64,000 nucleotides of DNA from Paracoccus versutus (GTDB taxonomy: Bacteria > Pseudomonadota > Alphaproteobacteria > Rhodobacterales > Rhodobacteraceae), in NCBI RefSeq assembly GCF_000763885.1, contig NZ_JRKO01000018.1:1-64000 (forward strand), in the 5' to 3' direction. Below are positions 19,579 to 39,332 of this stretch, in pieces (the stretch's first letter is position 1; the number at the start of each line of letters is the position of its first letter). Under the pieces are notes generated by a model that did not search any database, was not told the origin of the DNA, and saw nothing but the letters and a program-made list of their open reading frames with translations. The position numbers and the translations under genes are program-made.

Positions 19579-19652
19579 GCGGGTGTAGCTCAATGGTAGA
19601 GCCGCAGCTTCCCAAGCTGAAGACGAGGGTTCGATTCCCTTCACCCGCTCCA
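19579..19652 (+). tRNA. tRNA-Gly(CCC)
   Basis: 74-nt cloverleaf including encoded CCA. Acceptor GCGGGTG pairs with CACCCGC; D arm AGCTCAATGGTAGAGC; anticodon loop TTCCCAA gives anticodon CCC; T arm GGGTTCGATTCCC. The first anticodon-stem pair is a G-A mismatch. Confidence 0.95.
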
Positions 19653-21112: not shown

Positions 21113-21843
21113 GGGTATTTTTTCAACGAAGAAGCGGTTTCGGTAAGGCGGCCGATGAGCTCGGCGGCGGTGAAGGCGGCGATGATCTCGGGGCGCTTGT
21201 CGCGCGAATATCCCGCGCCGATGGGGCAGGTCAGCCGGTCGGTGTCCAGCCCCTGGGCACGGGCGAAGCGGCGGAACTGCGCCAGTTTCGTCCGGCTGCC
21301 GATCATGCCGATATAGGGCGCGTCCATGCGGCGCAGCGCCTCGGCCGCCAGCAGGAAGTCCAGCGCGTGGTCATGGGTGACGATGACATGGCTGGTGCCG
21401 AAGGGGGCGTTGCGGATCTCGGCCTCGGGCAGGGGGGTCAGGCGGGTTTCGCCCGTGGCCTGCCCGAGTTCGCCCATGCGCTGGTCGATCAGGATCGGGT
21501 GCAGCGGCAGCAGCGCCAGGGCCTTGGCGAGCGCGCGGCCGACATGGCCGGCGCCGAAGATCAGCACCTGCGGATATTCGGGCCCGGCCGGGGCCTCGGC
21601 CACGCGGATCAGCGAGAGTTCGACCCGGCCGCCGCAGCATTGGCCGATCTCGGGGCCCAGCGGCACGTCCATCACGGCCTGCGCCTCGCCGCGCGCCAGC
21701 ATCTGCCGGGCGCGGTCGATGGCCATGTATTCCAGCTGGCCGCCGCCGATGGTGCCGCTGAGGCCCTGGGGGGTGACGAACATCGCCGCCCCCTTCTCGC
21801 GCGGGGACGAGCCGCGGGTGCGGGTGATCTCGACCCGGATCAT
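21100..21843 (-). CDS. xdhC: Xanthine dehydrogenase accessory protein XdhC
   Basis: 247 residues. The N-terminal domain has RTRGSSPREKGAAMFV, GTIGGGQLEY and CCGGRVELSL, and the C-terminal Rossmann domain has QVLIFGAGHVGRALAKAL. XdhC binds molybdenum cofactor and delivers its sulfurated form to XdhB. ATG 21843 overlaps the xdhB stop as ATGA. The N-terminus is about 15 residues shorter than in many homologues, but longer frames would lie inside xdhB. The C-terminal residues SLKKYPCDS are encoded by a copy of the dispersed GTATTT...AACGAAGAAG element. Confidence 0.93.
   Translation of the reverse strand: MIRVEITRTRGSSPREKGAAMFVTPQGLSGTIGGGQLEYMAIDRARQMLARGEAQAVMDVPLGPEIGQCCGGRVELSLIRVAEAPAGPEYPQVLIFGAGHVGRALAKALALLPLHPILIDQRMGELGQATGETRLTPLPEAEIRNAPFGTSHVIVTHDHALDFLLAAEALRRMDAPYIGMIGSRTKLAQFRRFARAQGLDTDRLTCPIGAGYSRDKRPEIIAAFTAAELIGRLTETASSLKKYPCDS
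21113..21135 (+). repeat. Dispersed element copy inside the xdhC 3' end
   Basis: GGGTATTTTTTCAACGAAGA plus AGC carries the same core as the intergenic copies but lies within the last codons of xdhC, immediately before the guaD start region. Confidence 0.5.
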
Positions 21844-24152
21844 GGCCGCAGCCGCTCGATGGCCATCAGCACGCGCTCGGGGGTGGCGGGCGCGTCGATG
21901 CGCGGGTTCTCGGCATAGCCGTTGAACGAGGCCACCGCCATGTTCAGCGCCTGAAAGACCGAGATGCCCAGCATGAAGGGCGGCTCGCCCACCGCCTTCG
22001 AGCGCTTGATCGTCGCCTCGCGGTTCACCGACCAGTCGGCCAGCTGCACGTTGAAGACCTTGGGCCGGTCCGAGGCCAGCGGGATCTTGTAGGTCGAGGG
22101 CGCATGGGTGCGCAGCCGGCCCTTCTGGTCCCACCACAGTTCCTCGCTGGTCAGCCAGCCGGTGCCCTGCACGAAGGCGCCTTCGACCTGGCCCTTGTCG
22201 AGCGCCGGGTTCAGGCTGCGGCCCACGTCATGGAGCACATCGGCGCGCTCGATCACGTATTCGCCGGTCAGCGTGTCGACCGAGACCTCGGAGCAGGCGG
22301 CGCCATAGGCGAAGTAGTAGAAGGGCCGGCCCTGCCCGGTGTCGCGGTTCCAGTGGATCTTGGGCGTCTTGTAGAAGCCCGCGGCCGACAGCTGGACCCG
22401 CGCCAGATAGGCGGTGTTGACAAAATCCTGGAAGGGCATTTCCTCGGTGCCGATCTGCACCGTCTCGCCGATGCTGACCAGTTCCGGCGGCACGCCCTTG
22501 GCCTCGGCGGCGAAGGCGGTCAGCCGCTCGATCAGCTGGCGGCAGGCGTCCAGCGCCGCCATGCCGTTCAGGTCCGAGCCCGAGGACGCCGCGGTGGCCG
22601 AGGTGTTCGGCACCTTCTCGGTCGTGGTCTTGGTGATGCGGATGCGGTCGATGCTGACCCCCAGCGCCTCGGCCACCACCTGCGCGACCTTGGTGTTCAG
22701 GCCCTGGCCCATCTCGGTGCCGCCGTGGTTCAGGTGGATCGAGCCGTCCGAGTAGATGTGGATCAGCGCGCCGGCCTGGTTGTACCAGGTCGCGGTGAAG
22801 CTGATGCCGAACTTGACCGGGGTCAGGGCGATGCCCTTGCGGATCGCGCCGCCCTGTTCCTGGGCGCGGGCGTTCCAATCCAGCACCGCCTGGCGGCGGG
22901 CATGGTAGTCGCTGCTGGCCTCGAGTTCCTCGAAGATGCGCGGCAGGATCTGGTCCTCGACCTCCTGGTGATAGGGGGTGAGCTGGCCGTTCTCGTAGAG
23001 GTTCAGCTTGCGGATCTCCAGGGGGTCGCGGCCGAGGGCATAGGCGATGTCCTCGACGATGCGCTCGGCCATGACCACGCCCTGCGGGCCGCCGAAGCCG
23101 CGAAAGGCGGTGTTCGAGCAGGTGTTGGTCTTCATCGGATGGCTGCGCAGTTCCACCGCCGGGTAATAATAGGCGTTGTCGGCGTGGAACAGCGCCCGGT
23201 CCGTCACCGGGCCCGACAGGTCCGAGGACCAGCCGCAGCGGGCGTAGAAATCGGCGTCCACGGCGTGGATCCTGCCGGTCTCGTCATAGCCCACCTGGTA
23301 GTCGATGACGAAATCGTGCCGCTTGCCGGTGATCGAGAAATCGTCGTCGCGGTCGGGGCGCAGCTTGACCGCGCGCCCGAGCTTCTTGGCCGCCAGCGCC
23401 GAGATGCAGGCAAAGGGGTTCATCTGCGATTCCTTGCCGCCGAATCCGCCACCCATGCGGCGCACGTTCACCACCACGGCGTTCGAGGGCACGCCCAGCA
23501 CATGGGCGACCATGTGCTGCACCTCGCTGGGATGCTGGGTCGAGACGTTGACCACGACCTCGTCGTCCTCGCCGGGGATCGAGAAGGCGATCTGGCTTTC
23601 CAGGTAGAAATGCTCCTGCCCGCCGACGGTCAGCCGGCCTTCGATGCGCCGGGGCGCGCGGTCCATTTCGGCCATGTCGCCGCGCTTGAGCTTCAGGGGC
23701 TTGGTCACATAGCCCAGCCCGGCGTCGCGGGCGCTGATCGCGTCGATGGCAAAGGGCAGTTCCTCGTATTCCACGCGGGCCAGCTGGCAGGCGCGGCGGG
23801 CCTGGTCGCGGGTCTCGGCCACCACGGCGAAGATCGGCTGGCCGTGGAACTGCACCTCGTCCCCGGCCAGCAGCGGCTCGTCGTGCAGGCCGGTGGGCGA
23901 GATGTCGTTATGGCCGGGAATGTCCGCGGCGGTCAGCACCAGATGCACGCCGGGGGCCTTGCGCACCGCATCGAGGTCCATCGAGACGATGCGGCCATGC
24001 GCCACGGTCGAAAGCCCCAGATAGGCGTGCAGCGTGCCCACCGGCTCCATCAGGTCGTCGGTATAGTCGGCCCGGCCGGTGACGTGCTTTTCGGCGGAAT
24101 CGTGGATGATGGGCGTATGGGCGGCGCCCTTGACGAAGACGTCCTGTTTCAT
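21840..24152 (-). CDS. xdhB: Xanthine dehydrogenase, molybdopterin-binding subunit
   Basis: 770 residues, the usual XdhB length. Molybdopterin-binding motifs RRMGGGFGGKESQ and FRGFGGPQGVV are present, and the catalytic Glu is expected in KAVGEPPFMLG near the C-terminus. With XdhA it oxidises hypoxanthine and xanthine to urate, passing electrons to Fe-S, FAD and NAD+ in the cytoplasm. It overlaps both neighbours by ATGA (xdhA at 24149, xdhC at 21840), giving fixed stoichiometry in a tight operon. Confidence 0.97.
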   Translation of the reverse strand: MKQDVFVKGAAHTPIIHDSAEKHVTGRADYTDDLMEPVGTLHAYLGLSTVAHGRIVSMDLDAVRKAPGVHLVLTAADIPGHNDISPTGLHDEPLLAGDEVQFHGQPIFAVVAETRDQARRACQLARVEYEELPFAIDAISARDAGLGYVTKPLKLKRGDMAEMDRAPRRIEGRLTVGGQEHFYLESQIAFSIPGEDDEVVVNVSTQHPSEVQHMVAHVLGVPSNAVVVNVRRMGGGFGGKESQMNPFACISALAAKKLGRAVKLRPDRDDDFSITGKRHDFVIDYQVGYDETGRIHAVDADFYARCGWSSDLSGPVTDRALFHADNAYYYPAVELRSHPMKTNTCSNTAFRGFGGPQGVVMAERIVEDIAYALGRDPLEIRKLNLYENGQLTPYHQEVEDQILPRIFEELEASSDYHARRQAVLDWNARAQEQGGAIRKGIALTPVKFGISFTATWYNQAGALIHIYSDGSIHLNHGGTEMGQGLNTKVAQVVAEALGVSIDRIRITKTTTEKVPNTSATAASSGSDLNGMAALDACRQLIERLTAFAAEAKGVPPELVSIGETVQIGTEEMPFQDFVNTAYLARVQLSAAGFYKTPKIHWNRDTGQGRPFYYFAYGAACSEVSVDTLTGEYVIERADVLHDVGRSLNPALDKGQVEGAFVQGTGWLTSEELWWDQKGRLRTHAPSTYKIPLASDRPKVFNVQLADWSVNREATIKRSKAVGEPPFMLGISVFQALNMAVASFNGYAENPRIDAPATPERVLMAIERLRP

Positions 24153-25594
24153 TCGACCCTCCTCAGGCGGTGGTCTGCGCCCTGCTGTTCAAGCCAGAAG
24201 CGGCGGAAGAAGTTGGCGGCGAGTTGCTGGCGATATTCCTTGCTGGCCCGCCAGTCGCTGAGCGGCTGGAAGTCATTGGCGACCGCGCGCGCCGCGGCCT
24301 CGAAGGTCTCGGCGGTGAAGGGCTGGCCCTTCAGCGCCGCCTCGGCCTGGGTGGCGCGCTTGGGCGTGCCGGCCATGCCGCCGAAGGCCACGCGCGCGTC
24401 GATGATCGTCGCCCCGTCGGTTTCCACCCGGAAGGCGGCGGCCGAGGCGGTGATGTCGGCATGGTGGCGCTTGGAGACCTTGTAGGCGGCGATCCTGGCC
24501 TCGCCCTTCAGGGGCACGGTGATCGCCTCGACGAATTCGCCGGGGCGGCGGTCCTGCTTGCCGTATTCGATGAAGTAATCCTCGACGGGCAATTCGCGGG
24601 TGCCCTCGGCGCTGCGCAGCCGCAGGGTCGCGCCAAGCGCGATCAGCAGGGGCGGCGTCTCGCCGATGGGCGAGCCGTTGGCGACATTGCCGCCGATGGT
24701 GCCGGCATTGCGGACCTGCCAGCCGCCGATGCGCAGCCAGTAATCCACCGCCTCGGGGAAATGCTGGCGCAGGAAGGGCTCGAACTCGGAATAGGTCACA
24801 CCGGCGCCGATGGTGACATGGCCGGGGGCGATCTCGATCCGCTTGAGATCCTGAAGATGGCCGATGAACACCGCCGGAGAGATGTCGCGCAGGAATTTCG
24901 TCACCCACAGGCCGACGTCGGTGGCGCCGGCGACGATGGTGGCCTTGGGGTTCTGGGCCAGAACCTGCGCCAGGTCGGCGGCGTCGGCCGGCAGGATGGC
25001 GCGATCCTCGCCGCGCGCCACCTCGACGCGGTCGCGCGGGATCGCGGCCAGCGCGGCGGTGATGCGGTCGCGCTCGACATTCAGCGCGTCCATGTGCTGC
25101 CCGCCGGCCTCGGAAGCCGCGAAGGCCGCCTTCACGATCGGCTCGTAGCCGGTGCAGCGGCACAGGTTGCCTTGCAGCGCGGTTTCGATCGCCAGCATGT
25201 CGGGGCGCGGCTTGGACATCCACAGCCCGTAAAGCGCCATGACGAAGCCCGGCGTGCAAAAGCCGCATTGGCTGCCGTGATGCTCGACCATGGCGGCCTG
25301 GACCGGGTGCAAGCCCCCGTCCGCGCCGCGCAGATGCTCGACGGTGACGACATGGCAGCCATGGCACGAGGCCAGGAAGCGGATGCAGGCATTGATCGGC
25401 TCGTAATGCAGCCGGCCTTCGTGCAGCCGGCCGACCAGGACGGTGCAGGCGCCGCAATCGCCTTCGGCGCAGCCCTCCTTGGTGCCGGTCAGGCGGCGGT
25501 TGAGCCGCAGGAAGTCCAGAAGTGTGTCGCGCGATCCGGCCTCGGTCAGGCGGATCTCGGCGTCGTTCAGAAAAAAGCGCAATTCGTGGCCCAT
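24149..25594 (-). CDS. xdhA: Xanthine dehydrogenase small subunit (2x[2Fe-2S], FAD)
   Basis: 481 residues. The plant-type ferredoxin domain has GCAEGDCGACTV, the second [2Fe-2S] domain has HHGSQCGFCTPGFVM and NLCRCTGYEPI, and the FAD domain (about 190-470) has TIVAGATDVGLW and GTIGGNVANGSPIGE. It is the first gene of xdhABC-guaD. The 117-bp region upstream is shared with a divergent LysR-type regulator, which is the likely controller. Confidence 0.97.
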   Translation of the reverse strand: MGHELRFFLNDAEIRLTEAGSRDTLLDFLRLNRRLTGTKEGCAEGDCGACTVLVGRLHEGRLHYEPINACIRFLASCHGCHVVTVEHLRGADGGLHPVQAAMVEHHGSQCGFCTPGFVMALYGLWMSKPRPDMLAIETALQGNLCRCTGYEPIVKAAFAASEAGGQHMDALNVERDRITAALAAIPRDRVEVARGEDRAILPADAADLAQVLAQNPKATIVAGATDVGLWVTKFLRDISPAVFIGHLQDLKRIEIAPGHVTIGAGVTYSEFEPFLRQHFPEAVDYWLRIGGWQVRNAGTIGGNVANGSPIGETPPLLIALGATLRLRSAEGTRELPVEDYFIEYGKQDRRPGEFVEAITVPLKGEARIAAYKVSKRHHADITASAAAFRVETDGATIIDARVAFGGMAGTPKRATQAEAALKGQPFTAETFEAAARAVANDFQPLSDWRASKEYRQQLAANFFRRFWLEQQGADHRLRRVE

Positions 25595-27310: not shown

Positions 27311-27374
27311 GCCTGCCTCCCTCGATGCTGCCGAACGGTGCAGCTAGCCGATCCGGCGGGCAGAGGCAAACAGG

Positions 27375-28622
27375 TCAGTTCCAGGCGAAGGTCTTGGGCA
27401 GGCCGCGATACCAGTCGATGATCGCCTGGCGTTCCTGCGGCTCCATGAAGCTGACATTGGCGGGCGGCATGGCATCGGTCACGCCGGCCTGGATGAAGAT
27501 CTCGCGCGCGGCGCGGGTGATGTCGTCGGGGGTTTCCAGCAGCACGCCCTTGGGCGCGGTGTGGATGCCCTCGTACGAGGGCTCCCTGGCATGGCACATC
27601 GAGCAGCGGCCCATGACCGCGTTATAGGCGTCATCCCAACCCGGCGCGTCGAGCATCGCCTGTTGCGAGGGGGTCAGGACGCGGGCCTCGGCCTCCTCGA
27701 GCGTCTGGCGGAACATGGGCGCGGTCGAGAGCCACATGACGATGATGAACAGGATCGTGGTCGCGGCCCAGGTCCACCACTTCATGCCGCCGCCGGCGTG
27801 CATGGTGTTGAAGAAATGCCGGATGGTCACGCCCATCAGGAAAATCAGCCCGGCGATCACCCAGTTGTATTCGGTGGCGAAGGCCAGCGGATAGTGGTTC
27901 GACAGCATCAGGAAGACGACCGGCAGCGTCAGGTAGTTGTTATGCGTCGAGCGCAGCTTGGCGATCTTGCCGTATTTCGGATCGGCGGGACGCCCGGCCT
28001 TGAGGTCGGCGACGACGATGCGCTGGTTCGGCATGATGATGAAGAACACGTTCGCCGTCATGATCGTGGCGGTGAAGGCGCCCAGGTGCAGCATGACCGC
28101 GCGGCCGGTGAAGACCTGGTTGTAGGCCCAGCCCATGACCATCAGCAGCGCGAAGAGGATCAGCATCAGCAGGGTCGGGGTCTCGCCCAGCCTGGACTTG
28201 CACAGGTTGGTATAGATCAGCCAGCCGATCGAGAGCGAGCCGGCCGAGATCAGGATCGCCTGCCAGGGCGCCAGCTCCATCTTGGCGGGGTCGATCAGGA
28301 ACAGCTCGGAGCCGACCCAATAGGTGACCATCAGGAGCGCCGCCCCCGAGATCCAGGTCATGTAGCTTTCCCATTTGAACCAGATCAGATGCTCGGGCAT
28401 GCGCTCGGGCGCGACCAGGTATTTCTGGATGTGGTAGAAGCCGCCGCCATGGACCTGCCATTCCTCGCCATGCGCGCCGGGGGGCAGGCCCGGCACCTTG
28501 CGCAGCCCGAGGTCGAGGGCGACGAAATAGAAGGACGAGCCGATCCAGCAGATGGCGGTGACGACATGCGTCCAGCGGATGGCAAAGGCGAGCCAATCCC
28601 AGATGACGGCGAAATCGGACAT
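27375..28622 (-). CDS. puuD: Membrane-bound cytochrome c urate oxidase (PuuD)
   Basis: 415 residues. Eight or so membrane helices (about 8-310, DUF989 urate hydroxylase domain, starting WDWLAFAIRWTHVVTAICWIG) are followed by a periplasmic cytochrome c domain with heme motif CSMCH at about 351. PuuD oxidises urate to 5-hydroxyisourate and passes electrons to the respiratory chain, replacing soluble uricase. ATG 28622 has AGGAG nine bases upstream; a 20-residue longer frame lacks one. uraH, whose product handles the next step, lies just upstream but is separated by a terminator. Confidence 0.94.
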   Translation of the reverse strand: MSDFAVIWDWLAFAIRWTHVVTAICWIGSSFYFVALDLGLRKVPGLPPGAHGEEWQVHGGGFYHIQKYLVAPERMPEHLIWFKWESYMTWISGAALLMVTYWVGSELFLIDPAKMELAPWQAILISAGSLSIGWLIYTNLCKSRLGETPTLLMLILFALLMVMGWAYNQVFTGRAVMLHLGAFTATIMTANVFFIIMPNQRIVVADLKAGRPADPKYGKIAKLRSTHNNYLTLPVVFLMLSNHYPLAFATEYNWVIAGLIFLMGVTIRHFFNTMHAGGGMKWWTWAATTILFIIVMWLSTAPMFRQTLEEAEARVLTPSQQAMLDAPGWDDAYNAVMGRCSMCHAREPSYEGIHTAPKGVLLETPDDITRAAREIFIQAGVTDAMPPANVSFMEPQERQAIIDWYRGLPKTFAWN

Positions 28623-28743
28623 ACTTTGTCTCCTGTCTAGCTGGGGAAAGACTAGCCGCTTCGCGGGGTTGCGAGTATTCACGCATTTCCCCTTGCTGTC
28701 TTAACGATGCGTTGAAAATCTTTCGCGGGGTGCTGCGGAAATG

Positions 28744-28767
28744 AAAAAGAGGGGGCTTTGCCCCCTC
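28744..28767 (-). terminator. Intrinsic terminator after uraH
   Basis: GAGGGGGC-AAA-GCCCCCTC followed by TTTTT on the minus strand, 58 bp past the uraH stop. It is the first convincing terminator downstream of the bhcABCD-permease-deaminase-uraH gene string. It is embedded in the larger dispersed element described at 28794-28817. Confidence 0.85.
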
Positions 28768-28793
28768 AGGCCCGTGCCGGGCCTTTCACCCCC

Positions 28794-28817
28794 AGGGTAT
28801 TTGGAAAACGGAGAAAG
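28794..28817 (+). repeat. Dispersed element copy with hairpin
   Basis: AGGGTATTTGGAAAACGGAG plus AAAG, joined through CCCCC to the G5C-N3-GC5 hairpin at 28749-28767. The same two-part structure recurs inverted at 43506-43554. Confidence 0.6.
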
Positions 28818-28824
28818 CCTGGGC

Positions 28825-29175
28825 TCAGCTGCCGCGATAGGTCGAAAAGCCGTAGGGCGAGATCAGCAGCGGCACGTGGTAATGGTCCTGTTCGGACATG
28901 CCGAAGCGCAGGGGCACCTGGTCGAGGAAGCGGGGCTTGGCCGCCTGGTGTCCCTGGGCGTCGAGCCAGGCGCCGACATGGAAGACCAGTTCGTATTCGC
29001 CGGTCTGGAACTCCGCCTCGGGCAGGATGTGCTTGTCGGTGCGGCCGTCGTGGTTGGTGACGGTCTGGGCGATCAGCCGGCGCTCGGGGTCGAGGCGGTA
29101 AAGCTCGATCCGCATGCCTTGCGCGGGCGTGCCGTTGGCGGTGTCGAGCACATGGGTGGTCAGATAGCCGGGCAT
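28825..29175 (-). CDS. uraH: 5-Hydroxyisourate hydrolase (transthyretin-like)
   Basis: 116 residues, family length. The N-terminal signature HVLDTANGTPAQGM and the C-terminal YRGS tetrapeptide that distinguishes enzymes from transthyretin are both present, as is the HYHVPLLISPYGFSTY strand. It converts 5-hydroxyisourate, the PuuD product, to OHCU. It follows the 8-oxoguanine deaminase gene by 17 bp on the same strand. The next enzyme, OHCU decarboxylase UraD, is not in the window. Confidence 0.97.
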   Translation of the reverse strand: MPGYLTTHVLDTANGTPAQGMRIELYRLDPERRLIAQTVTNHDGRTDKHILPEAEFQTGEYELVFHVGAWLDAQGHQAAKPRFLDQVPLRFGMSEQDHYHVPLLISPYGFSTYRGS

Positions 29176-29192
29176 TGTGGTCCTTTCCTTAG

Positions 29193-30536
29193 TCAATCGG
29201 CGAGCCGGGCGATGGCGGCGCGGGCCTGTTCGTTCAGGCGATTCGTGTCTGCGGTCAGCAGGTGGTGATCCTGCACCACGGCGCGGCCTTCCACATAGAC
29301 CGCGCGCGGGCGGATCGGCGCGCAAAAGACCAGCGCCGCCACCGGATCCCATTGGCCGGCGGCGGACAGTTCCGAGACGTCCCAGAGCACCAGGTCGGCG
29401 CGCTTGCCGGGTTCCAGCGCGCCGATGTCGCTGCGGCCCAGCACGCGGGCGCCGCCGAGCGTGGCGATCTCCAGTGCCTCGCGCGCGCCCATGGCGGCGG
29501 GGCCGTCCTTGAGGCGGGCGACCAGCATGGCCTGGCGCGCCTCGAGGCCCAGATGGCTGCAATCGTTGCTGGCCGAGCCGTCGACGCCCAGGCCCATCGG
29601 CACGCCCGCGTCGCGCATCCGCCGCACCGGGGCGATGCCCGAGGCGAGGCGCGCGTTCGAGCAGGGGCAATGCGCGACCCCGGTGCCGCTGCGGGCGAAG
29701 AGGTCGATTTCCTTGTCCGACAGTTTCACGCAATGCGCGTGCCAGACATCCTCGCCGGTCCAGCCCAGGCTTTCGGCGTAATCGCCGGGCAGCATGCCGA
29801 AGTTTTGCAGCGAATAGGCGATATCCTCGTCGTTTTCGGCCAGGTGGGTGTGCAGCCGCACGCCCTTGTCGCGGGCGAGGATCGCCGCGTCGCGCATCAG
29901 TTCCCGGCTGACCGAGAAGGGCGAGCAGGGGGCGAGGCCGACCTGCACCATGGCGCCGGGCCTGGGGTCGTGGAAGGCGGCGACCAGGCGCTCGCTGTCC
30001 TTGAGGATCGCGGCCTCGTCCTCGACCAGGGCGTCGGGGGGCAGGCCGCCCTTGGACTCGCCGATCGACATGGCGCCGCGGGTGGCGGTGAAGCGGATGC
30101 CGATCTCGGCCGCCGCCTCGATGCTGTCGTCGAGCCGGGCGCCGTTCGGGAACAGGTAGAGATGGTCCGAGGAACAGGTGCAGCCCGAGAGCGCCAGTTC
30201 GGCAAGGCCGATCCGGGTCGACAGGCGGATGTCCTCGGGACCCATGCGGCCCCAGATCGGATAAAGCGTCCTGAGCCAGCCGAACAGCGCCGCGTCCTGG
30301 GCCGCGGGCACGGCGCGGGTCAGGGTCTGGAACAGGTGGTGATGGGTGTTGACGAGGCCGGGGGTGACGACGCAGCCCCGCGCCTCGACCACCTCGGCGC
30401 CTTCGGCCGAGAGGCCGGGGCCGACGGCGGAGATCACCCCGCCCTCGACCAGCACGTCCCCGCCGGCGATCTCGCGCCGGGCGCCGTCCATGGTCACGAC
30501 CACTTCGGCGCCCCTGATGAGCAGGCGTTTCGTCAT
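29193..30536 (-). CDS. 8-Oxoguanine deaminase (amidohydrolase)
   Basis: 447 residues. Metal ligands appear in VTPGLVNTHHHLFQTLTR, RLHTHLAEN, WHAHCVKL and GLGVDGSASNDCSHLG. The CSSDHLYLFPNG segment is typical of the 8-oxoguanine deaminase/AtzB-like subgroup, which turns 8-oxoguanine into urate and so feeds the urate pathway directly. It is distinct from GuaD, encoded 8 kb away. Its ATG overlaps the permease stop by one base (TGATG). Assignment to 8-oxoguanine rather than a triazine or other aminopurine rests on family resemblance and context. Confidence 0.85.
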   Translation of the reverse strand: MTKRLLIRGAEVVVTMDGARREIAGGDVLVEGGVISAVGPGLSAEGAEVVEARGCVVTPGLVNTHHHLFQTLTRAVPAAQDAALFGWLRTLYPIWGRMGPEDIRLSTRIGLAELALSGCTCSSDHLYLFPNGARLDDSIEAAAEIGIRFTATRGAMSIGESKGGLPPDALVEDEAAILKDSERLVAAFHDPRPGAMVQVGLAPCSPFSVSRELMRDAAILARDKGVRLHTHLAENDEDIAYSLQNFGMLPGDYAESLGWTGEDVWHAHCVKLSDKEIDLFARSGTGVAHCPCSNARLASGIAPVRRMRDAGVPMGLGVDGSASNDCSHLGLEARQAMLVARLKDGPAAMGAREALEIATLGGARVLGRSDIGALEPGKRADLVLWDVSELSAAGQWDPVAALVFCAPIRPRAVYVEGRAVVQDHHLLTADTNRLNEQARAAIARLAD

Positions 30537-32017
30537 CAATGCGCCTCGGCTGCGTGGGCGGCGGCGGCGATTTCCTCGTCGCTGGTGTGCGGCGCGCCGT
30601 TGAAGAACCAGTTCAGCAGCACCGCGGCCACGGCGGCCAGAAGGATGCCGGAGTGGATCAGCGTGTGCATGGAATGCGGCAGCCACTGGTTGAAGTCGGG
30701 CGCGATCATCGGGACCATGCCCAGCCCCAGCGAGACGGCGACGATGAACAGGTTGTGCTTGTTGCCCTTGAAATCCACCGTCGAGAGGATGCGGATGCCG
30801 GTCGCGGCGACCATGCCGAACATCACCAGCCCCGCGCCGCCCAGCACCGTGGTCGGCAGCGATTCGACCAGCGCGCCCATCTTGGGGATCAGGCCCAGCA
30901 CGATCATGATCGCGCCGCCCGCCACGCAGACGAAGCGCGAGCGCACGCCGGTCACGCCCACCAGCCCGACGTTCTGGCTGAAGGAGGTATAGGGGAAGGT
31001 GTTGAAGAGCCCGCCGATTGCGGTGCCGAGCCCGTCGACGCGCAGCCCGGCCGAAAGCGCCTTGGGCGTCATGCGGCGGCCGCAGATGTCGGAAAGCGCC
31101 AGGAACATGCCGGTCGATTCGATCATGGTCACGAACATGACCAGCAGCATGGTCAGGATCATCACCGGGTCGAAGATCGGCATGCCGAAATGCAGGGGCT
31201 TGATCGGGGCGAACCAGGCGGCCTCGGCGATGCCCTCGAAATGCATCATGCCGAGCGCGGCGGCCAGCAGCCCGCCGATGACGATGCCCAGGAGCACCGC
31301 GATATTGGCGACGAAGCCGCGGGCGTAGCGGGCGATCAGCAGGATCGCGGCCAGCACGGTGATGCCGATCAGGATGCGCGGCAGCGAGGCATATTCGGGA
31401 TTGGCGACGGTCGGCATCAGCTTGACGCTGTCGGGGACGTCGCCGGCGGCGCGGGCGGCCTCCAGCCAGGCCTGGGCGGCGGGATCGACCAGTTGCGGCG
31501 CGGTCGGGCCGACCGGCAGGCCGAAGATCCAGTTGATGCCCACCGGCATCAGGCTGACGCCGATCACCAGGATCACCGTGCCGGTGACGACGCTGGGGAA
31601 AAAGCGCAACAGCCGGCTGACCAGCGGCGCGAAGAAGATCGAGATGAGCCCGGCGGCCATGATGGCGCCGAACATCATCCGCGCCCCCTCCTGCCCCGGA
31701 TTGGACGAGGCGATGGCGACCATCGGCCCGACGGCGGCGAAGGTCACGCCCATCATCACCGGCAGGCGGATGCCGAACCATTGCGTGGCGCCGAAGGACT
31801 GGATGATGGTGACGATGCCGCAGACGAAGAGGTCGGCGGAAATCAGGAAGGCCACGTCCTGCGGCGACAGCTGCAGGGCGCGGCCGACGATCAGCGGCAC
31901 CGCGATGGCGCCGGCATACATGACCAGAACATGCTGGAAGCCCAGGGCGAGCAGCCGAGGCGCGACGATGCGCTCCTCGACCGGATCAAAGCCGGGGCTG
32001 GTATCGATTGCTTGCAT
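30536..32017 (-). CDS. NCS2 family purine (xanthine/urate) permease
   Basis: 493 residues with about 14 hydrophobic segments. The nucleobase-ascorbate transporter signature is seen as SQNVGLVGVTGVRSRF, with Gln-Asn-X-Gly, and the preceding helix has VTMIESTGMFLALSDICGR. The family takes up xanthine, urate or uracil with H+ or Na+. GGGAGG precedes ATG 32017. It starts only 39 bp after the bhcD stop with no hairpin between, and its stop overlaps the 8-oxoguanine deaminase start. The context points to urate or xanthine uptake. Confidence 0.93.
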   Translation of the reverse strand: MQAIDTSPGFDPVEERIVAPRLLALGFQHVLVMYAGAIAVPLIVGRALQLSPQDVAFLISADLFVCGIVTIIQSFGATQWFGIRLPVMMGVTFAAVGPMVAIASSNPGQEGARMMFGAIMAAGLISIFFAPLVSRLLRFFPSVVTGTVILVIGVSLMPVGINWIFGLPVGPTAPQLVDPAAQAWLEAARAAGDVPDSVKLMPTVANPEYASLPRILIGITVLAAILLIARYARGFVANIAVLLGIVIGGLLAAALGMMHFEGIAEAAWFAPIKPLHFGMPIFDPVMILTMLLVMFVTMIESTGMFLALSDICGRRMTPKALSAGLRVDGLGTAIGGLFNTFPYTSFSQNVGLVGVTGVRSRFVCVAGGAIMIVLGLIPKMGALVESLPTTVLGGAGLVMFGMVAATGIRILSTVDFKGNKHNLFIVAVSLGLGMVPMIAPDFNQWLPHSMHTLIHSGILLAAVAAVLLNWFFNGAPHTSDEEIAAAAHAAEAH

Positions 32018-32056
32018 TCGTCCTATACCTCCCTAGTTTCAGGACGTTATGTCTCT

Positions 32057-33019
32057 TTAGATCTCGACTTCTTGCGCCAGTCCCTTTTCCTTTGCGATTT
32101 CAAGGACTTTCTGCGCAACCGCCAGATCCTGCAGCCCGACGCCGGTACCGTCGAACAGCGTCACCTCGGCGTCGACGCGTCCCGGATGGTCGCCCGCGAC
32201 CACGGCGCCGAGTTCGCCGATCTGATCCTCGCGGATCAGGCCCGATGCGATGGCATGCTGGCATTCGCCGATGCTGACCGACTGCGCGACCTCGTCGGTG
32301 AAGATCCGGGCGCGCGCGACCAGCGCCGGGTCCAGCTCCTGCTTGCCTTTCGTATCGGTGCCCATGGCGGCGATATGCGTCGGACCCTTCACATGCTGGT
32401 CCATCAGCAGGGGCGAGAAGGACGAGGTGATCGAGATGATCACGTCGGCCTCGGTGCCCAGCCGGTCCAGCTCGACCGCCTCGAAGGGCAGGCCCAGCTC
32501 GGCCGCGGTATCGGCAAGGCGCGACAGCATCTCGGGATGCGGGTTCCAGCCGATGACCTTCTCGAACGGATGCACATTGGCCGCCGCCCGCATCTGGAAG
32601 GCGGACTGGTGGCCGGCGCCGATCATGCCCAGCACCTTGGCCCCCTTGGGCGCCAGATACTTGATCGACACCGCCGAGGCTGCCGCGGTGCGCAGCGCCG
32701 TCAGCAGGTTGCCGCCCACCGCGGCAGTCACCCGGCCGGTGTCCGGGTCGAACAGGAAGACGGTGGACTGGTGGTTGATCAGGTTGTGCTTCTGGTTGTT
32801 CGGCCAGTAGCCGCCGGCCTTCAGCCCCAGCACCAGCGCCGAGGCGTCGAAGCCGCCCTTGAAGCCGTAAAGCGCATCCTCGTGGCCGATGGCCTCGCGC
32901 ACCACCGGGAAGTTATAGGCCTTGCGACGGGCCATCGAGGCGAAGATGGCCTCGATGGCCTCGAAGGCCGCCTCGGGGGTCATCAGACCCGCGATTTCCT
33001 TTTCGGCGACGACGAGCAT
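32057..33019 (-). CDS. bhcD: Iminosuccinate reductase (beta-hydroxyaspartate cycle)
   Basis: 320 residues of the ornithine cyclodeaminase/mu-crystallin family, with Rossmann motif VLGMIGAGHQSAFQMRA, RTAAASAVSIKYLAP and a C-terminal FDGTGVGLQDLAVA. Alone it could be called ornithine cyclodeaminase, but its place as last gene of bhcABCD identifies it as the NAD(P)H-dependent reductase that turns iminosuccinate into L-aspartate, regenerating the amino donor of the cycle. ATG 33019 overlaps the bhcC stop by one base. The cycle was described in Paracoccus denitrificans. Confidence 0.93.
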   Translation of the reverse strand: MLVVAEKEIAGLMTPEAAFEAIEAIFASMARRKAYNFPVVREAIGHEDALYGFKGGFDASALVLGLKAGGYWPNNQKHNLINHQSTVFLFDPDTGRVTAAVGGNLLTALRTAAASAVSIKYLAPKGAKVLGMIGAGHQSAFQMRAAANVHPFEKVIGWNPHPEMLSRLADTAAELGLPFEAVELDRLGTEADVIISITSSFSPLLMDQHVKGPTHIAAMGTDTKGKQELDPALVARARIFTDEVAQSVSIGECQHAIASGLIREDQIGELGAVVAGDHPGRVDAEVTLFDGTGVGLQDLAVAQKVLEIAKEKGLAQEVEI

Positions 33020-34182
33020 CAGTAGCCCTTTCCGCGCGCCGAAACCGGCCAGACCGTCTCGACCTTGCCGTTCCGAACGCCGACATACCAGTCGTGGACG
33101 TTGCAGGTCGGGTCGCAATGGCCGGGCACCAGCCGCAGCTTGTCGTTGACTTTCAGCACGCCGTCCTTGTCCTCGACCACACCATGCTCGTCGCTGCACT
33201 TGATGTATTTCACGTCGTCGCGGCCATAGACGAAGGGCAGGCCGCTATCGACCGACTGCGCCTTGAGCCCGGCATCGACCACCGCCAGGTGCGGCTTGGC
33301 ATGGCTCATGACCGAGGTCAGGATGAACAGCGCGTTCTCCCATTCGCCCTGGTCGATACGCTTGCCCTCGGCATCGTGGATGCGGCCGTAATCGGCATCC
33401 ATGAAGGCGTAGCTGCCGCATTGCAATTCGTTGTAAACGCCCGAATTGCTTTCGAAGTAATACGACCCCGTGCCGCCGCCCGAGACGAATTCGGGGGGCA
33501 AGCCCTCGGCTTCCAACGCCGCGACGGCTTCCTTGACCTGGGCGATGGCGGCGTCCAGCTTGGCCTTGCGGTCCTCGTAGCTGTCCATGTGCTGCATGGC
33601 GCCCTGATAGGCCTGGATACCCCTGAAGACCAGGTTCGGGGCGGCGTCGGCGGCCTTGGCGATCTCGACCACGGCTTCCTTGGTGGTCACGCCGCAGCGC
33701 CCGGCGCCGCAGTCGATTTCCACGAAGATGCCCAGTTCGGTGCCGTGCTTTTGCGCCGCCGCCGACAGGTCGGCGATGTTGGACACGTCGTCGACGCAGA
33801 CCGTCACCGTCGCGCCGGTCTTGGGCAGGCGGGCCAGCCTGTCGATCTTGGCCGGCTCGCGCACCTCGTTCGTGACCAGCACGTCCCCGATGCCGCCACG
33901 GGCAAAGACCTCGGCCTCGCTGACCTTCTGGCAGCAGACGCCGACCGAGCCGCCCAGCGACTCCTGCAGCTTCTGCACGTCCACCGACTTGTGCATCTTG
34001 CCGTGGCTGCGGTGGCGCATGCCATGCGCCTTGGCATAGTCGCCCATCTTCCTGATGTTGCGCTCCAGCGCGTCCAGGTCGAGGATCAGGCAGGGCGTCT
34101 GGATCTCGGCCTCGTCCATGCCCGGCAGGGCGGGGATGTCATAGCCGACCTCGTAGCCGGCGAAATCCGTTTTCGCGTTCAT
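33019..34182 (-). CDS. bhcC: beta-Hydroxyaspartate aldolase (D-threonine aldolase-like)
   Basis: 387 residues, PLP-dependent, fold type III alanine-racemase-like barrel. The PLP lysine lies in HRSHGKMHKS (Lys62 most likely); the metal site is expected in the C-terminal GHCDPTCNVHDWY. BhcC condenses glycine and glyoxylate to (2R,3S)-beta-hydroxyaspartate. It is located between bhcB (21-bp gap) and bhcD (1-bp overlap). Simple homology would suggest D-threonine aldolase; the cluster context decides the function. Confidence 0.94.
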   Translation of the reverse strand: MNAKTDFAGYEVGYDIPALPGMDEAEIQTPCLILDLDALERNIRKMGDYAKAHGMRHRSHGKMHKSVDVQKLQESLGGSVGVCCQKVSEAEVFARGGIGDVLVTNEVREPAKIDRLARLPKTGATVTVCVDDVSNIADLSAAAQKHGTELGIFVEIDCGAGRCGVTTKEAVVEIAKAADAAPNLVFRGIQAYQGAMQHMDSYEDRKAKLDAAIAQVKEAVAALEAEGLPPEFVSGGGTGSYYFESNSGVYNELQCGSYAFMDADYGRIHDAEGKRIDQGEWENALFILTSVMSHAKPHLAVVDAGLKAQSVDSGLPFVYGRDDVKYIKCSDEHGVVEDKDGVLKVNDKLRLVPGHCDPTCNVHDWYVGVRNGKVETVWPVSARGKGY

Positions 34183-34203
34183 GGGGCTCTCCTCAATTCG
34201 GGT

Positions 34204-35169
34204 TCAGTTCCAGGGCAGCTTGTCGAGATCGACATTGCCGCCGGTGACGATGACGCCGACGCGCTTGCCGGCAAAGGCATCCGGGTTCTTCAGGATGGTG
34301 GCCAGCGGCACGGCGCTGGAGGGCTCCATCACGATGCGCAGGTGCTTCCAGATCAGCTTCATCGCGTCCACGATCTCGGCGTCCGAGGCGGTATAGATCT
34401 CGTGGACGTGGTTCTTGACGAAATGCCAGGTCAGATCCTTGAGCGGCACCAGCAGGCCGTCGGCGACGGTCTTGGGCGCGTCGTCGGCGATGATGTAGCC
34501 GGCCTTGAAGCTGCGATAGGCGTCGTCGGCCTGCTCGGGCTCGGCCGCGATCACCTTCACCTCGGGCGCCAGCGTCGACAGCGTCAGGCAGGTGCCCGAG
34601 ATCATGCCGCCGCCGCCGATGGGGGCCACCACGGCGTCGAGCCCGTCGGTCTGCTCCATGAGCTCCTTGGCGCAGGTGCCCTGGCCCGCGATCACCCGCG
34701 GGTCGTTATAGGGGTGGACGAAATCGCCGCCGGTCTCGGCCTGCACCTTGGCGAAGGTCTCTTCCCGCGACGAGGTCGAGGGCTCGCATTCGGTGATCTT
34801 GCCGCCATAGCGGCGCACCGTGTCCTTCTTGGCCTGCGGCGCGGTGCGCGGCATGACCACGTTGCAGGGGATGCCCCGCAGCATGGCCGCGTAGCTCAGG
34901 CACGAGGCATGGTTGCCCGAGCTATGCGTGGCGACGCCCCTGGCCGCCTGCGCCTCGTCAAGGCCAAAGACCGCATTGGTGGCGCCGCGGACCTTGAAGG
35001 CCCCCGGCTCCTGGAAGTTTTCGCATTTGAAGAACAGCTGCGCGCCGGCAAGCTCGTTCAGATAGTCCGACGTGCGGATCGGCGTGCGGCGGATATGCGG
35101 CTTGATCCGCTCATGCGCGGCCAGCATGTCCTCGTAGGTCGGGATATACATCTCGCTGTCCTTCATCAC
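34204..35169 (-). CDS. bhcB: beta-Hydroxyaspartate dehydratase
   Basis: 321 residues, fold type II PLP enzyme related to serine/threonine dehydratases. PLP lysine in PGAFKVRGATNAV, the SSGNHASCLSY substrate loop and the PLP-phosphate glycine loop PIGGGGMISG are visible. It removes water from beta-hydroxyaspartate to give iminosuccinate for BhcD. Its ATG at 35169 overlaps the bhcA stop as ATGA. Confidence 0.95.
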   Translation of the reverse strand: MMKDSEMYIPTYEDMLAAHERIKPHIRRTPIRTSDYLNELAGAQLFFKCENFQEPGAFKVRGATNAVFGLDEAQAARGVATHSSGNHASCLSYAAMLRGIPCNVVMPRTAPQAKKDTVRRYGGKITECEPSTSSREETFAKVQAETGGDFVHPYNDPRVIAGQGTCAKELMEQTDGLDAVVAPIGGGGMISGTCLTLSTLAPEVKVIAAEPEQADDAYRSFKAGYIIADDAPKTVADGLLVPLKDLTWHFVKNHVHEIYTASDAEIVDAMKLIWKHLRIVMEPSSAVPLATILKNPDAFAGKRVGVIVTGGNVDLDKLPWN

Positions 35170-36356
35170 GCGGCTTTCTTCTGCGCGGCGGCGGTGGTCT
35201 GGCGGTAATGTTCCTGCGCGGCAGCGACGCCCGAGCCCAGCTTGATCGGCAGGCCCAGGTCGGCCATCACCATCTCGGCCGTGGCGATGCCGGACAGCGC
35301 CATGGCGTCGGTCAGGCTGCCCAGGTGGCCGATGCGGAACACCTTGCCTGCGACCTGGCCCAGGCCGGTGCCGAAGGCCATGTCATAGGTCTCCAGCGCA
35401 TGGCTGACGATCAGGTTGGCGTCGAAGCCCTCGGGGACGCGGATGGCGCTGACGCTGTCGGAATAAAGCTCGGGGCGGGCGGCGCAGAGCTTCAGCCCCC
35501 AGGCCTCGACCGCGGCGCGCACGCCGCCGGCGATGCGGTGGTGGCGGGCAAAGACGTTCTCCAGCCCCTCGGCCAGGATGCGCTCGCAGCTGGCGTTCAG
35601 CCCGTTGATCAGGCCGACCGGCGGCGTATAGGGATAGCCGTTGCGGGCATAGCCGGTCGCCATGTCGCGGATGTCGAAGAAGGTGCGCGGCAGGCGCGCG
35701 CTTTCGACCGCCGCCATGGCCTTGGGCGAGAAGCCGACGATGGCCAGCCCCGGCGGCAGCATGAAGCCTTTTTGCGAGCCGGTGACGGCGATGTCGACGC
35801 CCCATTCGTCCATGCGGAAATCCATCGAGCCGATCGAGGAAACGCCGTCGACGAACAGCATGGCCGGGTGCTTGGCGGCGTCCAGCGCGCGGCGGACGGC
35901 GGCGATGTCGGATTTCACCCCGGTTGCGGTCTCGTTATGCGTGGCCAGCACGACGCGGATCTCGTGGCCCTTGTCGGCGGCCAGGATCTCTTCGAAACGG
36001 TCGGCGGGGATGCCCTCGCCCCAGGGGGTCTCGACGAAGGTCACGTCCAGCCCGTGGCGCTGGCACATGTCGATCCAGCGGTGGCTGAACATGCCGTTGC
36101 GGGCCGCCAGCACCTTGTCGCCGGGCGACAGCGTGTTGGTGATCGCGGTTTCCCAGCCGCCGGTGCCGGTCGAGGGGAACAGGAAAACCTGCGCCTGCGT
36201 GGTCTTGAGGACTTTCTTCACCCCCTCCAGCGCCGGATGCAGCATCCGGCCGAACACCGGCGAGCGGTGGTCGATGGTGGGCATGTCCACGGCCTTGCGC
36301 ATCTCCTCGGGGATGTTGGTGGGGCCGGGGATGAAGATCGGGTTCTGACTGGTCAT
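35166..36356 (-). CDS. bhcA: Aspartate--glyoxylate aminotransferase
   Basis: 396 residues, class V aminotransferase (AGXT-like). PLP lysine is in AVTGSQKGFMLPPG; FIPGPTNIPEEMR at the N-terminus and the FRIGHLGSLTD C-terminal motif are typical. It transaminates glyoxylate with aspartate, giving glycine and oxaloacetate, the net product of the cycle. A strong AGGAGG ribosome site precedes ATG 36356. It is the first gene of bhcABCD and is divergent from bhcR across a 184-bp AT-rich region with inverted repeats. Confidence 0.96.
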   Translation of the reverse strand: MTSQNPIFIPGPTNIPEEMRKAVDMPTIDHRSPVFGRMLHPALEGVKKVLKTTQAQVFLFPSTGTGGWETAITNTLSPGDKVLAARNGMFSHRWIDMCQRHGLDVTFVETPWGEGIPADRFEEILAADKGHEIRVVLATHNETATGVKSDIAAVRRALDAAKHPAMLFVDGVSSIGSMDFRMDEWGVDIAVTGSQKGFMLPPGLAIVGFSPKAMAAVESARLPRTFFDIRDMATGYARNGYPYTPPVGLINGLNASCERILAEGLENVFARHHRIAGGVRAAVEAWGLKLCAARPELYSDSVSAIRVPEGFDANLIVSHALETYDMAFGTGLGQVAGKVFRIGHLGSLTDAMALSGIATAEMVMADLGLPIKLGSGVAAAQEHYRQTTAAAQKKAA

Positions 36357-36411
36357 GGCAATTCCTCCTGCGCTTGTGGACCAAGCTACGTTTTGCTGTC
36401 CATTGATGCAA

Positions 36412-36513
36412 TTTTTCTGAAAAATATTTCGCAATCGCGGAAAAATGGCCTAAAGTGACGTGGAATCAGCCGGTTGGTCTTTTCCAAAGCTAAGCCGTGA
36501 TTTTCAAGAAAAT
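36412..36513. promoter_or_regulatory. bhcA-bhcR divergent control region with IclR-like dyads
   Basis: Within the AT-rich 184-bp intergenic region, three inverted repeats stand out: TTTTTCTGAAAAA at 36412-36424, TTTCGCAATCGCGGAAA at 36427-36443, and ATTTTCAAGAAAAT at 36500-36513 (6-bp arms, 2-bp spacer), the last flanked by TTTTCCA and TGGAAAA. IclR regulators often bind GAAA/TTTC-type dyads. In P. denitrificans BhcR is reported to bind this region, with glyoxylate lowering affinity. Exact site boundaries here are my inference. Confidence 0.6.
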
Positions 36514-36540
36514 GGAAAAGTTGTCGAAAGGAAAAATTGA

Positions 36541-37380
36541 ATGTCGGTTCAGATCCGCAAAAGGGGCCGTCCCAGGGGCCGCGCCGGCGGCCTTGGCGCC
36601 GAGGATTCGGGCGGCATCCGGGCGCTGGACCGGGCGCTCGACATCCTCGACCTGATCGCGGTCTCCAGCGGGCTGACGCTGACCGAGATCGCGCAGCGCC
36701 TGGAGATGGCGCCCTCGACCGTGCATCGGGTGCTGGTGACGCTGGCGGCGCGCGGCGTGGCGGAAAGCGACAGCCAGACCCAGGCCTGGCATGTCGGGCC
36801 GACGGCCTTTCGCCACGGCTCGGCCTTCATGCGCCGCTCGGGCCTGGTCGAGCGGGCGCGGCCGCTGCTGCGCCGGCTGATGGAGGTGACGGGCGAGACG
36901 GCGAACCTGGGCATCCTGAACGGCGATGCCGTGCTGTTCCTGAGCCAGGCCGAGACGCATGAGACGATCCGCGCCTTCTTTCCGCCCGGCACGCGCTCGG
37001 CGCTGCATGCCTCGGGGATCGGCAAGGCGCTTCTGGCCCATGCCCGGCCGGCGGACCTGAAGCGGATGATCCGCGAGATGCGGCTGGAGCGGTTCACCGA
37101 GATGACGCTGACCGACCCCCAGGCGCTCCTGGACGATCTGGCCCGCATCCGCGCCCGCGGCTATGCCCTGGACAACGAAGAGCGCACGCCCGGCATGCGT
37201 TGCATCGCCGCGCCGATCTTCGACCTGGCCGGCGAGGCGGCGGCGGGGATCTCGGTCTCGGGGCCGAGCCTACGCATGTCGGACGCACGGCTCGAGGCCA
37301 TGTCCGAGGCGGTGATCGAGGCCGCGCGCGAGCTTTCCCTGGGCATGGCGCCGCATGCGGGGGCGGGCGAGGAGCGCTGA
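36541..37380 (+). CDS. bhcR: IclR-family regulator of the beta-hydroxyaspartate cycle
   Basis: 279 residues. The winged HTH (about 22-90) includes LTLTEIAQRLEMAPSTVHRV; the effector GAF-like domain (about 100-270) has FFPPGTRSALHASGIGKALLA and GMRCIAAPIFDL. A GAAAGG ribosome site precedes ATG 36541. It is divergent from bhcABCD. A positively charged N-terminal arm (IRKRGRPRGRAGG) precedes the HTH. Its control of bhc is established in the model organism and transferred here by context. Confidence 0.93.
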   Translation: MSVQIRKRGRPRGRAGGLGAEDSGGIRALDRALDILDLIAVSSGLTLTEIAQRLEMAPSTVHRVLVTLAARGVAESDSQTQAWHVGPTAFRHGSAFMRRSGLVERARPLLRRLMEVTGETANLGILNGDAVLFLSQAETHETIRAFFPPGTRSALHASGIGKALLAHARPADLKRMIREMRLERFTEMTLTDPQALLDDLARIRARGYALDNEERTPGMRCIAAPIFDLAGEAAAGISVSGPSLRMSDARLEAMSEAVIEAARELSLGMAPHAGAGEER

Positions 37381-37567
37381 TTCGTCTAATTGCGCCCGGA
37401 CCGGACCTTTTCTTTCCGGGCTGATGCGGGGATTTCCCGGCCATTTGTGCATTAACCGTCGATTCACGTTCAGTTCACGCCGCCCGGCCTAGCTTCGACG
37501 CAACCTGTGACCGCGTCCGCCTGCCGGGTCCGAAGGATCCGGCGCGTGTCCTGCAAGGAGCTTCGGC

Positions 37568-39244: not shown

Positions 39245-39254
39245 CGATCCGGTA

Positions 39255-39284
39255 GCCCGGAGGCGGAGGCAGCCGCCTCCGGGC
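39255..39284 (+). terminator. Strong intercistronic hairpin
   Basis: A perfect 12-bp stem, GCCCGGAGGCGG / CCGCCTCCGGGC with a 6-nt loop, sits 11 bp after the DUF6345 stop and 48 bp before the pentapeptide-repeat gene. No T-run follows (ACTTGACTGG), so it may be an attenuator, a stability hairpin or a Rho-type site more than a full terminator. Confidence 0.55.
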
Positions 39285-39332
39285 ACTTGACTGGCCGCAC
39301 ACTCTTGGCGAGGACTGTCCGAGAGAGGGAGC

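Follow-up and report, generated by a model that had tools for sequence, protein, structure and literature searches.

Behind the genes of the beta-hydroxyaspartate cycle (BHAC), bhcABCD, the soil bacterium Paracoccus versutus carries genes for an NCS2 permease, an 8-oxoguanine deaminase and 5-hydroxyisourate hydrolase (uraH). Judging from the sequence, we give a probability of roughly 70% to the reading that these seven genes form one transcription unit, which would link the uptake and breakdown of purines with assimilating the glyoxylate thus released. The window analysed here is a stretch of 64,000 nt (contig NZ_JRKO01000018.1, positions 1–64,000), to which all coordinates refer.

Layout of the predicted transcription unit

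The genes bhcA, bhcB, bhcC and bhcD are all present, and in a profile search of the window proteins each product scored over its equivalog cut-off; gene identities were judged against the NCBIfam cut-offs for named families (Table 1). Xanthine dehydrogenase (Xdh), PuuD and UraH of oxidative purine degradation are all encoded in the window as well. Together the bhc and purine genes make a block of ∼17 kb, down to guaD at 19835, with a methyltransferase gene and a plus-strand LysR gene between puuD and xdhA.

Gene order and spacing proved to be exactly as given in the first-pass annotation: a gap of 39 bp (32018–32056) separates bhcD from the permease gene, which overlaps the 8-oxoguanine deaminase gene by 1 bp, and another 17 bp lead to uraH, all on the minus strand. 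With one strand, short gaps and a terminator-like site at the end, bhcABCD–permease–8-oxoguanine deaminase–uraH has the layout of a single operon. The strongest terminator-like site within 27000–40000 is the one after uraH (28767–28749), and its stem and T run are kept after uraH in P. denitrificans; the earlier placing of the first good terminator at this point is borne out. The scan of this region alone proves little, as it gave 7 sites vs a mean of 5.8 in shuffles; another site, a weak one, lies within the 8-oxoguanine deaminase gene (29345–29330). Between bhcD and the permease gene we found no terminator-like site and no sigma-70-like site, the sigma-70 scan being poorly suited to this bacterial group.

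Conservation in Paracoccus

Region 28825–36356 is 100% identical to the 1.74-Mb replicon of P. versutus (NZ_CP035287.1) and, over its whole length, 93.3% identical to P. denitrificans, the model species for the cycle. The gene order from bhcR to puuD is unchanged in P. denitrificans HAMBI_2443, each protein aligning at full or almost full length, with 94.7–97.7% identity for BhcA–D; the bhcD–permease junction measures 41 bp and a terminator-like stem is found at the matching place. The activities of the four bhc enzymes and the need for them in growth on glyoxylate are known for P. denitrificans DSM 413 (PMC11323563, which is cited here, like the other papers, from part of its text).

Among 125 Paracoccus genomes, BhcD (accepted at E up to 1e-100) is present in 76. 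In 53 of these, bhcD is immediately followed on its own strand by an orthologous permease gene, at a distance of up to 84 bp by alignment ends in 50 and of 307–365 bp in three. We read 45 junctions, including two from genera other than Paracoccus. The bhcD stop and the permease start are 28–42 bp apart in 41 of them, which is little more than a ribosome-binding site; the others measure 58, 59, 93 and 302 bp. The gene for 8-oxoguanine deaminase takes the place of the permease gene behind bhcD in P. yeei and P. mutanolyticus, and uglY with puuE stands on the far side of bhcR in 9 of 33 named Paracoccus loci. When eight loci (L280–L287) were chosen from the 23 genomes with no adjacent permease, seven still had a purine gene near bhc, in four of these xdh or guaD alone.

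Conservation in the family and class

The family sample, which we take from the genus of the window to be Rhodobacteraceae in GTDB, comprised 198 genomes of 197 genera. BhcD, counted when over its cut-off, was found in 87 genomes and PuuD in 188. With PuuD in almost every genome of the family, mere co-occurrence of bhc and purine genes is uninformative as a test. From the 87 genomes we took 90 bhcD loci with ∼9 kb on either side, less where contigs end (L122, below the BhcD cut-off, was dropped from the count). At least one of puuD, uraH, puuE, allA and uglY lies near bhcD in 34 of the 90 loci, or in 32 of the 76 with >8 kb downstream; the individual counts were puuD 24, uraH 27, puuE 28, allA 27 and uglY 26. 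For puuD, ∼0.5 loci would be expected at random, a binomial probability of ∼2e-34 if the loci were independent; this formal value is too small, because the loci are related. Outside Paracoccus, a frequent arrangement is uglY, bhcR and bhcABCD, then permease–allA–puuE on the opposite strand, then uraH and puuD (e.g. L177, L180 and L201). Identification of the puuE, allA and permease proteins is based on Pfam plus NCBIfam for L070 and on Pfam for L086.

Glycolate oxidase was rejected as a natural neighbour of bhc: no glcD or glcE match of >100 bits was found near bhcD in any of the 90 family loci, and such genes were near bhc in 4 of the 171 loci scanned overall. These four sole loci (L182, L187, L193 and L195) all come from metagenome-assembled genomes.

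The class-wide sample (385 genomes) had BhcD over the cut-off in 14 genomes, 11 of them outside the family. Linkage to purine genes was seen at two of the 11 outside loci, both in other gene orders, and no such purine gene was near bhcD in the remaining nine. In L277, uraH starts ∼17 bp behind bhcD; in L273, an oxoguanine deaminase–allA–uglY–puuE group stands opposite uraH–xdhABC.

A quick tree of BhcC plus BhcD was built with 105 rows, of which 93 were labelled as linked or unlinked and 12 were left unlabelled for too little flank. It includes L280–L287 and omits five loci in which BhcC or BhcD is short or missing; 42 of its 102 inner branches, being weakly supported, are drawn open. A minimum of 22 switches between the linked and the unlinked state is needed on this tree, an approximate count in which gain is not told from loss. 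The link was therefore probably made or lost many times.

Several genomes have two bhcD loci: G055 (L064 and L079), G099 (L043 and L044), G173 (L056 and L073), as well as G220, G251, G253, G279 and G304. G099 has a purine block beside one copy and none beside the other; in G055 a purine block stands at one copy and uglY alone at the other.

Later steps of purine breakdown and routes for glyoxylate

In the genome of the window, contig C29 encodes a PuuE–UraD fusion protein (65% identical to the L070 protein), with uglY just behind it; UglY is identical to the annotated protein of P. ferrooxidans. AllA (177 bits) is encoded on contig C96. By these assignments most later steps to glyoxylate are encoded elsewhere in the genome, the assignment of allantoate amidohydrolase being unsure.

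Glyoxylate carboligase (Gcl), the key enzyme of the other route known for net glyoxylate assimilation, was not found in the genome of the window, where the best protein scored 353.6 bits vs the cut-off of 711.2, nor over the cut-off in any of the 198 family genomes, with at most six candidates scored per genome. The Gcl (glycerate) route for purine-derived glyoxylate was rejected on these scores. PuuD is found in 188 family genomes, yet Gcl over the cut-off in none, and this applies to members without bhc too (malate synthase was not searched for). The glcD–glcE genes of this genome are on contig C16, beside a divergent open reading frame (ORF) which we take to resemble a GlcR-type regulator.

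By layout and conservation, co-transcription and functional coupling of the bhc and purine genes appear well supported. The functional part of the first-pass annotation, that the cycle is coupled to purine breakdown, likewise gains from the conservation of the linkage, its several gene orders across genera and the lack of a Gcl route.

Conserved element upstream of bhcA

A motif was learned from 75 bhcR–bhcA intergenic regions of the family, that of the window included. It typically lies ∼56 bp before bhcA and scored >5 in 71 of the 75 training regions. The element reads GAAAAA..TTTTCAAAAAAA, followed by AAAAAATTGC, which we read as leading into the −35 region of bhcA. Its position matches that of the palindromic BhcR site, placed upstream of the bhcA −35 region in PMC11323563. 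The best motif hit in the window (12.1) is this element, the sole strong BhcR-type site there, and the same scan found none in the bhcD–permease junction; one strong site before bhcA and none in the junction fit a single promoter driving the whole unit. Among the loci scanned, all 106 hits with a score >13 are located before bhcA. We infer that BhcR binds this conserved element; in P. denitrificans, BhcR with glyoxylate activates the bhc promoter (PMC11323563).

An element of the TTTTCAAAAAAA..GAAAG type occurs next to puuE in many relatives (puuE–uraH regions, e.g. L090, L062 and L228), some of them without bhc. It may serve as operator for a different IclR-type regulator of purine genes.

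Proposed mechanism and alternatives

According to the proposed mechanism, transcription would start at the bhcA promoter and end at the terminator after uraH. Purines would enter through the permease; guanine, xanthine and 8-oxoguanine would be converted to urate by GuaD, Xdh and 8-oxoguanine deaminase, and urate to glyoxylate, ammonia and urea by PuuD, UraH, UraD–PuuE, allantoate amidohydrolase, UglY and AllA. BhcA–D would then turn two molecules of glyoxylate into oxaloacetate. The purine-to-glyoxylate and BhcA–D reactions are textbook knowledge of these enzyme families; for this unit we infer the read-through, the control by BhcR, the substrates and the flux. BhcR with glyoxylate would raise the cycle together with the permease, 8-oxoguanine deaminase and UraH. 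Because BhcR responds to glyoxylate, this would be a feed-forward loop in which the end product raises uptake and the early steps.

A bolder version, which we put forward tentatively and think is probably too broad, is that in the Paracoccus family the BHAC would serve primarily as the last module in the use of purine carbon. BhcR would then sense glyoxylate and switch the uptake and breakdown of purines, in algal glycolate use a glycolate oxidase encoded separately would borrow this module, and a small Shine–Dalgarno hairpin at the bhcD–permease junction would set translation of the permease apart from that of the cycle enzymes.

Several observations weigh against the coupling of purine breakdown to the cycle in one unit. 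An adjacent permease is absent in 23 of the 76 bhcD-bearing Paracoccus genomes (some on broken contigs, and two with 8-oxoguanine deaminase instead), and the junctions of 93 and 302 bp, two of the 45 read, carry GC-rich inverted repeats. No such purine neighbour is present in the fetched DNA of 56 of the 90 family loci, 14 of the 90 having <8 kb downstream. Purine degradation does not appear to need the bhc cycle, since PuuD is found in so many more family genomes than BhcD (188 vs 87 of 198). The puuE–uraD–uglY genes and allA are not at the bhc locus, puuE being ∼0.66 Mb from bhc on replicon NZ_CP035287, and they have no strong BhcR-type site here: the score before puuE is 4.4, and an unrelated position on that stretch reaches 5.3. 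No protein scored over the AllC cut-off of 597.75; the best (250.7 bits, contig C31) may or may not be an allantoate amidohydrolase. Malate synthase, which was not searched for, would be another means of using glyoxylate.

The main rival explanation is nitrogen nutrition, in which purines would serve as a nitrogen source and the cycle would merely dispose of glyoxylate, a reactive by-product. The occurrence of purine genes with and without bhc, seen in the PuuD and BhcD counts just given, agrees with it, and so does the general biochemistry of urate, which has four nitrogen atoms per two carbon atoms ending in glyoxylate; the response of BhcR to glyoxylate (PMC11323563) argues the other way. 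We consider this explanation possible, at distinctly less than even odds. A wider purine set under BhcR, with binding also to the puuE and uraH promoters of relatives, seems unlikely to us, although of 26 sites scoring >6 outside the promoters of bhc genes, 10 are no more than 250 bp ahead of uraH, puuE, allA or uglY. Divergent puuE–uraH regions of relatives score >6 in 5 of 33 cases vs 0.28 in dinucleotide shuffles, and the weak 4.4 site before puuE in this genome points the same way. The other 28 of the 33 score ≤6, however, none reaches 13, the score level of bhcA promoters, and a like element (TTTTCA..GAAAG) was seen by eye in puuE–uraH regions of some bhc-free genomes (e.g. L228 and L240), so another regulator may own it. 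Since no site outside the bhcA promoters scores >13 and the like element occurs in some bhc-free genomes, we do not claim control of the relatives' purine promoters by BhcR, despite the enrichment.

Returning to the coupled unit, one may ask whether the permease, oxoguanine deaminase and uraH genes have a promoter and regulator of their own, their adjacency to bhc being inherited and not functional. The 56 family loci unlinked in the fetched DNA would agree with this, as would the divergent puuE–uraH promoter that many relatives outside Paracoccus have for their own (33 such regions were read). It is made quite improbable by the short gaps, in which the ribosome-binding site is kept though the permease diverges to ∼72% identity, by the lack of a promoter-like site in the junction (in a sigma-70 scan poorly suited to the group) and by the recurrence of linkage in different gene orders. 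Chance adjacency, for instance of neighbours on a secondary replicon, was rejected on the surveys of Paracoccus and the family and on the many changes between linked and unlinked on the tree; with puuD near bhcD in 24 of 90 loci vs ∼0.5 expected and nothing found in its favour, its probability is close to nil.

Junction hairpin

The bhcD–permease junction had been described as having no hairpin. This is right as far as a terminator is concerned and wrong for secondary structure, as a small hairpin is present at 32019–32046. It reads CGTCCTG...GGGAGG...TAGGACG, with the ribosome-binding site displayed in the loop; there is no T run, and the hairpin is not a terminator. The predicted fold has −10.1 kcal/mol (z −1.98), and 6 of 200 shuffles fold equally well. 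The pair below the stem differs on both sides among close relatives (A–T in L292, C–G in L148 and L154). L144 and L293 have CATCC/GGATG, in which the start codon itself is an arm and the pairs may not correspond to those of the window; in a second clade of Paracoccus, the same GGGAGG is flanked by GTGGA/TCCGC. The hairpin is clear in the window and its close relatives, and absent in species such as L151, L157 and L294. Other stems among 39 junctions are mostly of 5 pairs, with a mean longest stem of 5.5 vs 3.6 in shuffles. The hairpin might tune translation of the permease relative to the cycle enzymes, which we offer as a lead only; since the shuffle z-scores are modest (−1.98 in the window, −1.42 in L144 and −0.62 in L148) and most other junction stems are near those of shuffles, we keep it as a side observation.

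Features of the window

Coordinates of the genes and sites discussed above are collected in Table 1. Directly after bhcR, the window has a gene for a DUF6345 protein (37568–39244, plus strand); a DUF6345 gene is likewise positioned in Paracoccus sp. SMMA_5_TC. Two tRNA genes are present (3711–3783, minus strand; 19579–19649, plus strand), and no other Rfam family was over threshold in the window.

Table 1. Genes and predicted sites of the bhc–purine block, in window coordinates
Feature	Position	Strand	Basis
guaD, guanine deaminase	19835..21112	-	amidohydrolase domain; annotated guaD in P. ferrooxidans
xdhC, accessory protein	21100..22137 (ORF as listed; true start probably further in)	-	XdhC domains; 744-bp gene in P. 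ferrooxidans
xdhB, xanthine dehydrogenase large subunit	21840..24152	-	Pfam domains; P. ferrooxidans annotation
xdhA, xanthine dehydrogenase small subunit	24149..25594	-	Pfam domains; annotated xdhA in P. ferrooxidans
puuD, membrane urate hydroxylase	27375..28622	-	PF06181, 441.6 bits; annotated PuuD in relative SMMA_5_TC; outside the span of the first-pass annotation
Terminator-like hairpin after uraH and before puuD, where the transcription unit probably ends	28749..28767	-	8-bp stem, 7 G-C, T run
uraH, 5-hydroxyisourate hydrolase	28825..29175	-	TIGR02962, 124.8 bits (cut-off 87)
8-oxoguanine deaminase	29193..30536	-	NF006055, 699.4 bits (cut-off 532)
NCS2 permease, PbuX (xanthine permease) subfamily; subfamily assignment only, substrate putative	30536..32017	-	TIGR03173, 511.7 bits (cut-off 414)
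Small hairpin in the bhcD–permease junction, permease Shine–Dalgarno (32028-32033) in loop	32019..32046	-	stem CGTCCTG/TAGGACG
bhcD, iminosuccinate reductase	32057..33019	-	NF045643, 581 bits (cut-off 500)
bhcC, 3-hydroxy-D-aspartate aldolase	33019..34182	-	NF045642, 771 bits (cut-off 690)
bhcB, beta-hydroxyaspartate dehydratase	34204..35166	-	NF045641, 588.8 bits (cut-off 550)
bhcA, L-aspartate--glyoxylate aminotransferase	35166..36356	-	NF045640, 767.8 bits (cut-off 650)
Probable BhcR operator, an element (GAAAAA..TTTTCAAAAAAA type) conserved ahead of bhcA	36412..36431	-	motif; binding by BhcR predicted
bhcR, IclR-family regulator of the cycle	36541..37380	+	NF045644, 415.7 bits (cut-off 350); divergent from bhcA

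Significance and comparison with known systems

For algal glycolate, the BHAC is a known carbon-conserving route; the original paper on the cycle reportedly appeared in Nature in 2019. The layout described here suggests that the cycle, so far linked to algal glycolate, also recovers carbon from DNA and RNA bases. If this is true, and purines are a major source of glyoxylate, widespread marine and soil bacteria would recover the carbon of nucleic-acid bases and avoid losing CO2 at the Gcl step. Clear, cheap testing is within reach: one model organism already has bhc mutants, a bhcR mutant and proteomes from growth on glyoxylate and ethylene glycol (PMC11323563, PMC12214560).

The enzymes and the regulator are known, and their wiring with purine genes appears new. 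The linkage of bhc to purine genes is not mentioned in the parts consulted of PMC11323563, PMC12694930, PMC12214560, PMC11166783, PMC10878069, PMC11698098 and PMC4562309, and we did not find it among the matches listed from open-access full texts, a scope that leaves out most subscription papers, the 2019 Nature paper and supplementary files. Counted from BhcR (Pden_3922) and bhcA (Pden_3921), the P. denitrificans genes that follow bhcD would have numbers just below Pden_3918; Pden_3915 to Pden_3918 are named in no open-access full text searched. In the portions available to us, a 2025 paper on ethylene glycol in P. denitrificans has no purine, urate, xanthine or oxoguanine in its main text, a 2024 paper on a metabolic model of that species has no purine, urate, allantoin or xanthine, and a review of ethylene glycol has no purine. 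PMC11323563 names purines as one source of glyoxylate and two routes as known for its net assimilation; in its main text, as far as consulted, 'permease' and 'xanthine' do not occur and 'purine' stands only in the introduction, as that source, and in a reference.

The closest known system is bhcRABCD of P. denitrificans (mBio 2024, PMC11323563), which has the same five genes, order, divergent bhcR and element upstream of bhcA as the window. Unlike the unit proposed here it is described for glycolate, glyoxylate and ethylene glycol, and yet P. denitrificans HAMBI_2443 does have purine genes behind bhcD. The PuuD–UraH–UraD type of urate degradation described in PMC4562309 shares its urate enzymes with the Paracoccus locus; that paper cites P. 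denitrificans as a reported urate degrader, and the word 'glyoxylate' is absent from its main text as far as consulted.

A dedicated module for purine-derived glyoxylate is also present in Pseudomonas aeruginosa, where the allantoin-inducible gcl cluster PA1498–PA1502 is required for growth on allantoin as a carbon source (PMC12694930). That cluster encodes the glycerate pathway (Gcl, Hyi and GlxR), whereas the Paracoccus unit has the four BHAC enzymes and no Gcl. In Escherichia coli the allantoin/glyoxylate regulon likewise relies on an IclR-family glyoxylate sensor, AllR, which links the breakdown of allantoin with the use of glyoxylate; there the route is Gcl-based and AllR represses, whereas BhcR is an activator of BHAC genes (PMC11323563). 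By analogy, the Paracoccus unit most likely works like the P. aeruginosa gcl cluster and the E. coli AllR regulon with a different, carbon-saving module, and is no member of the Gcl routes.

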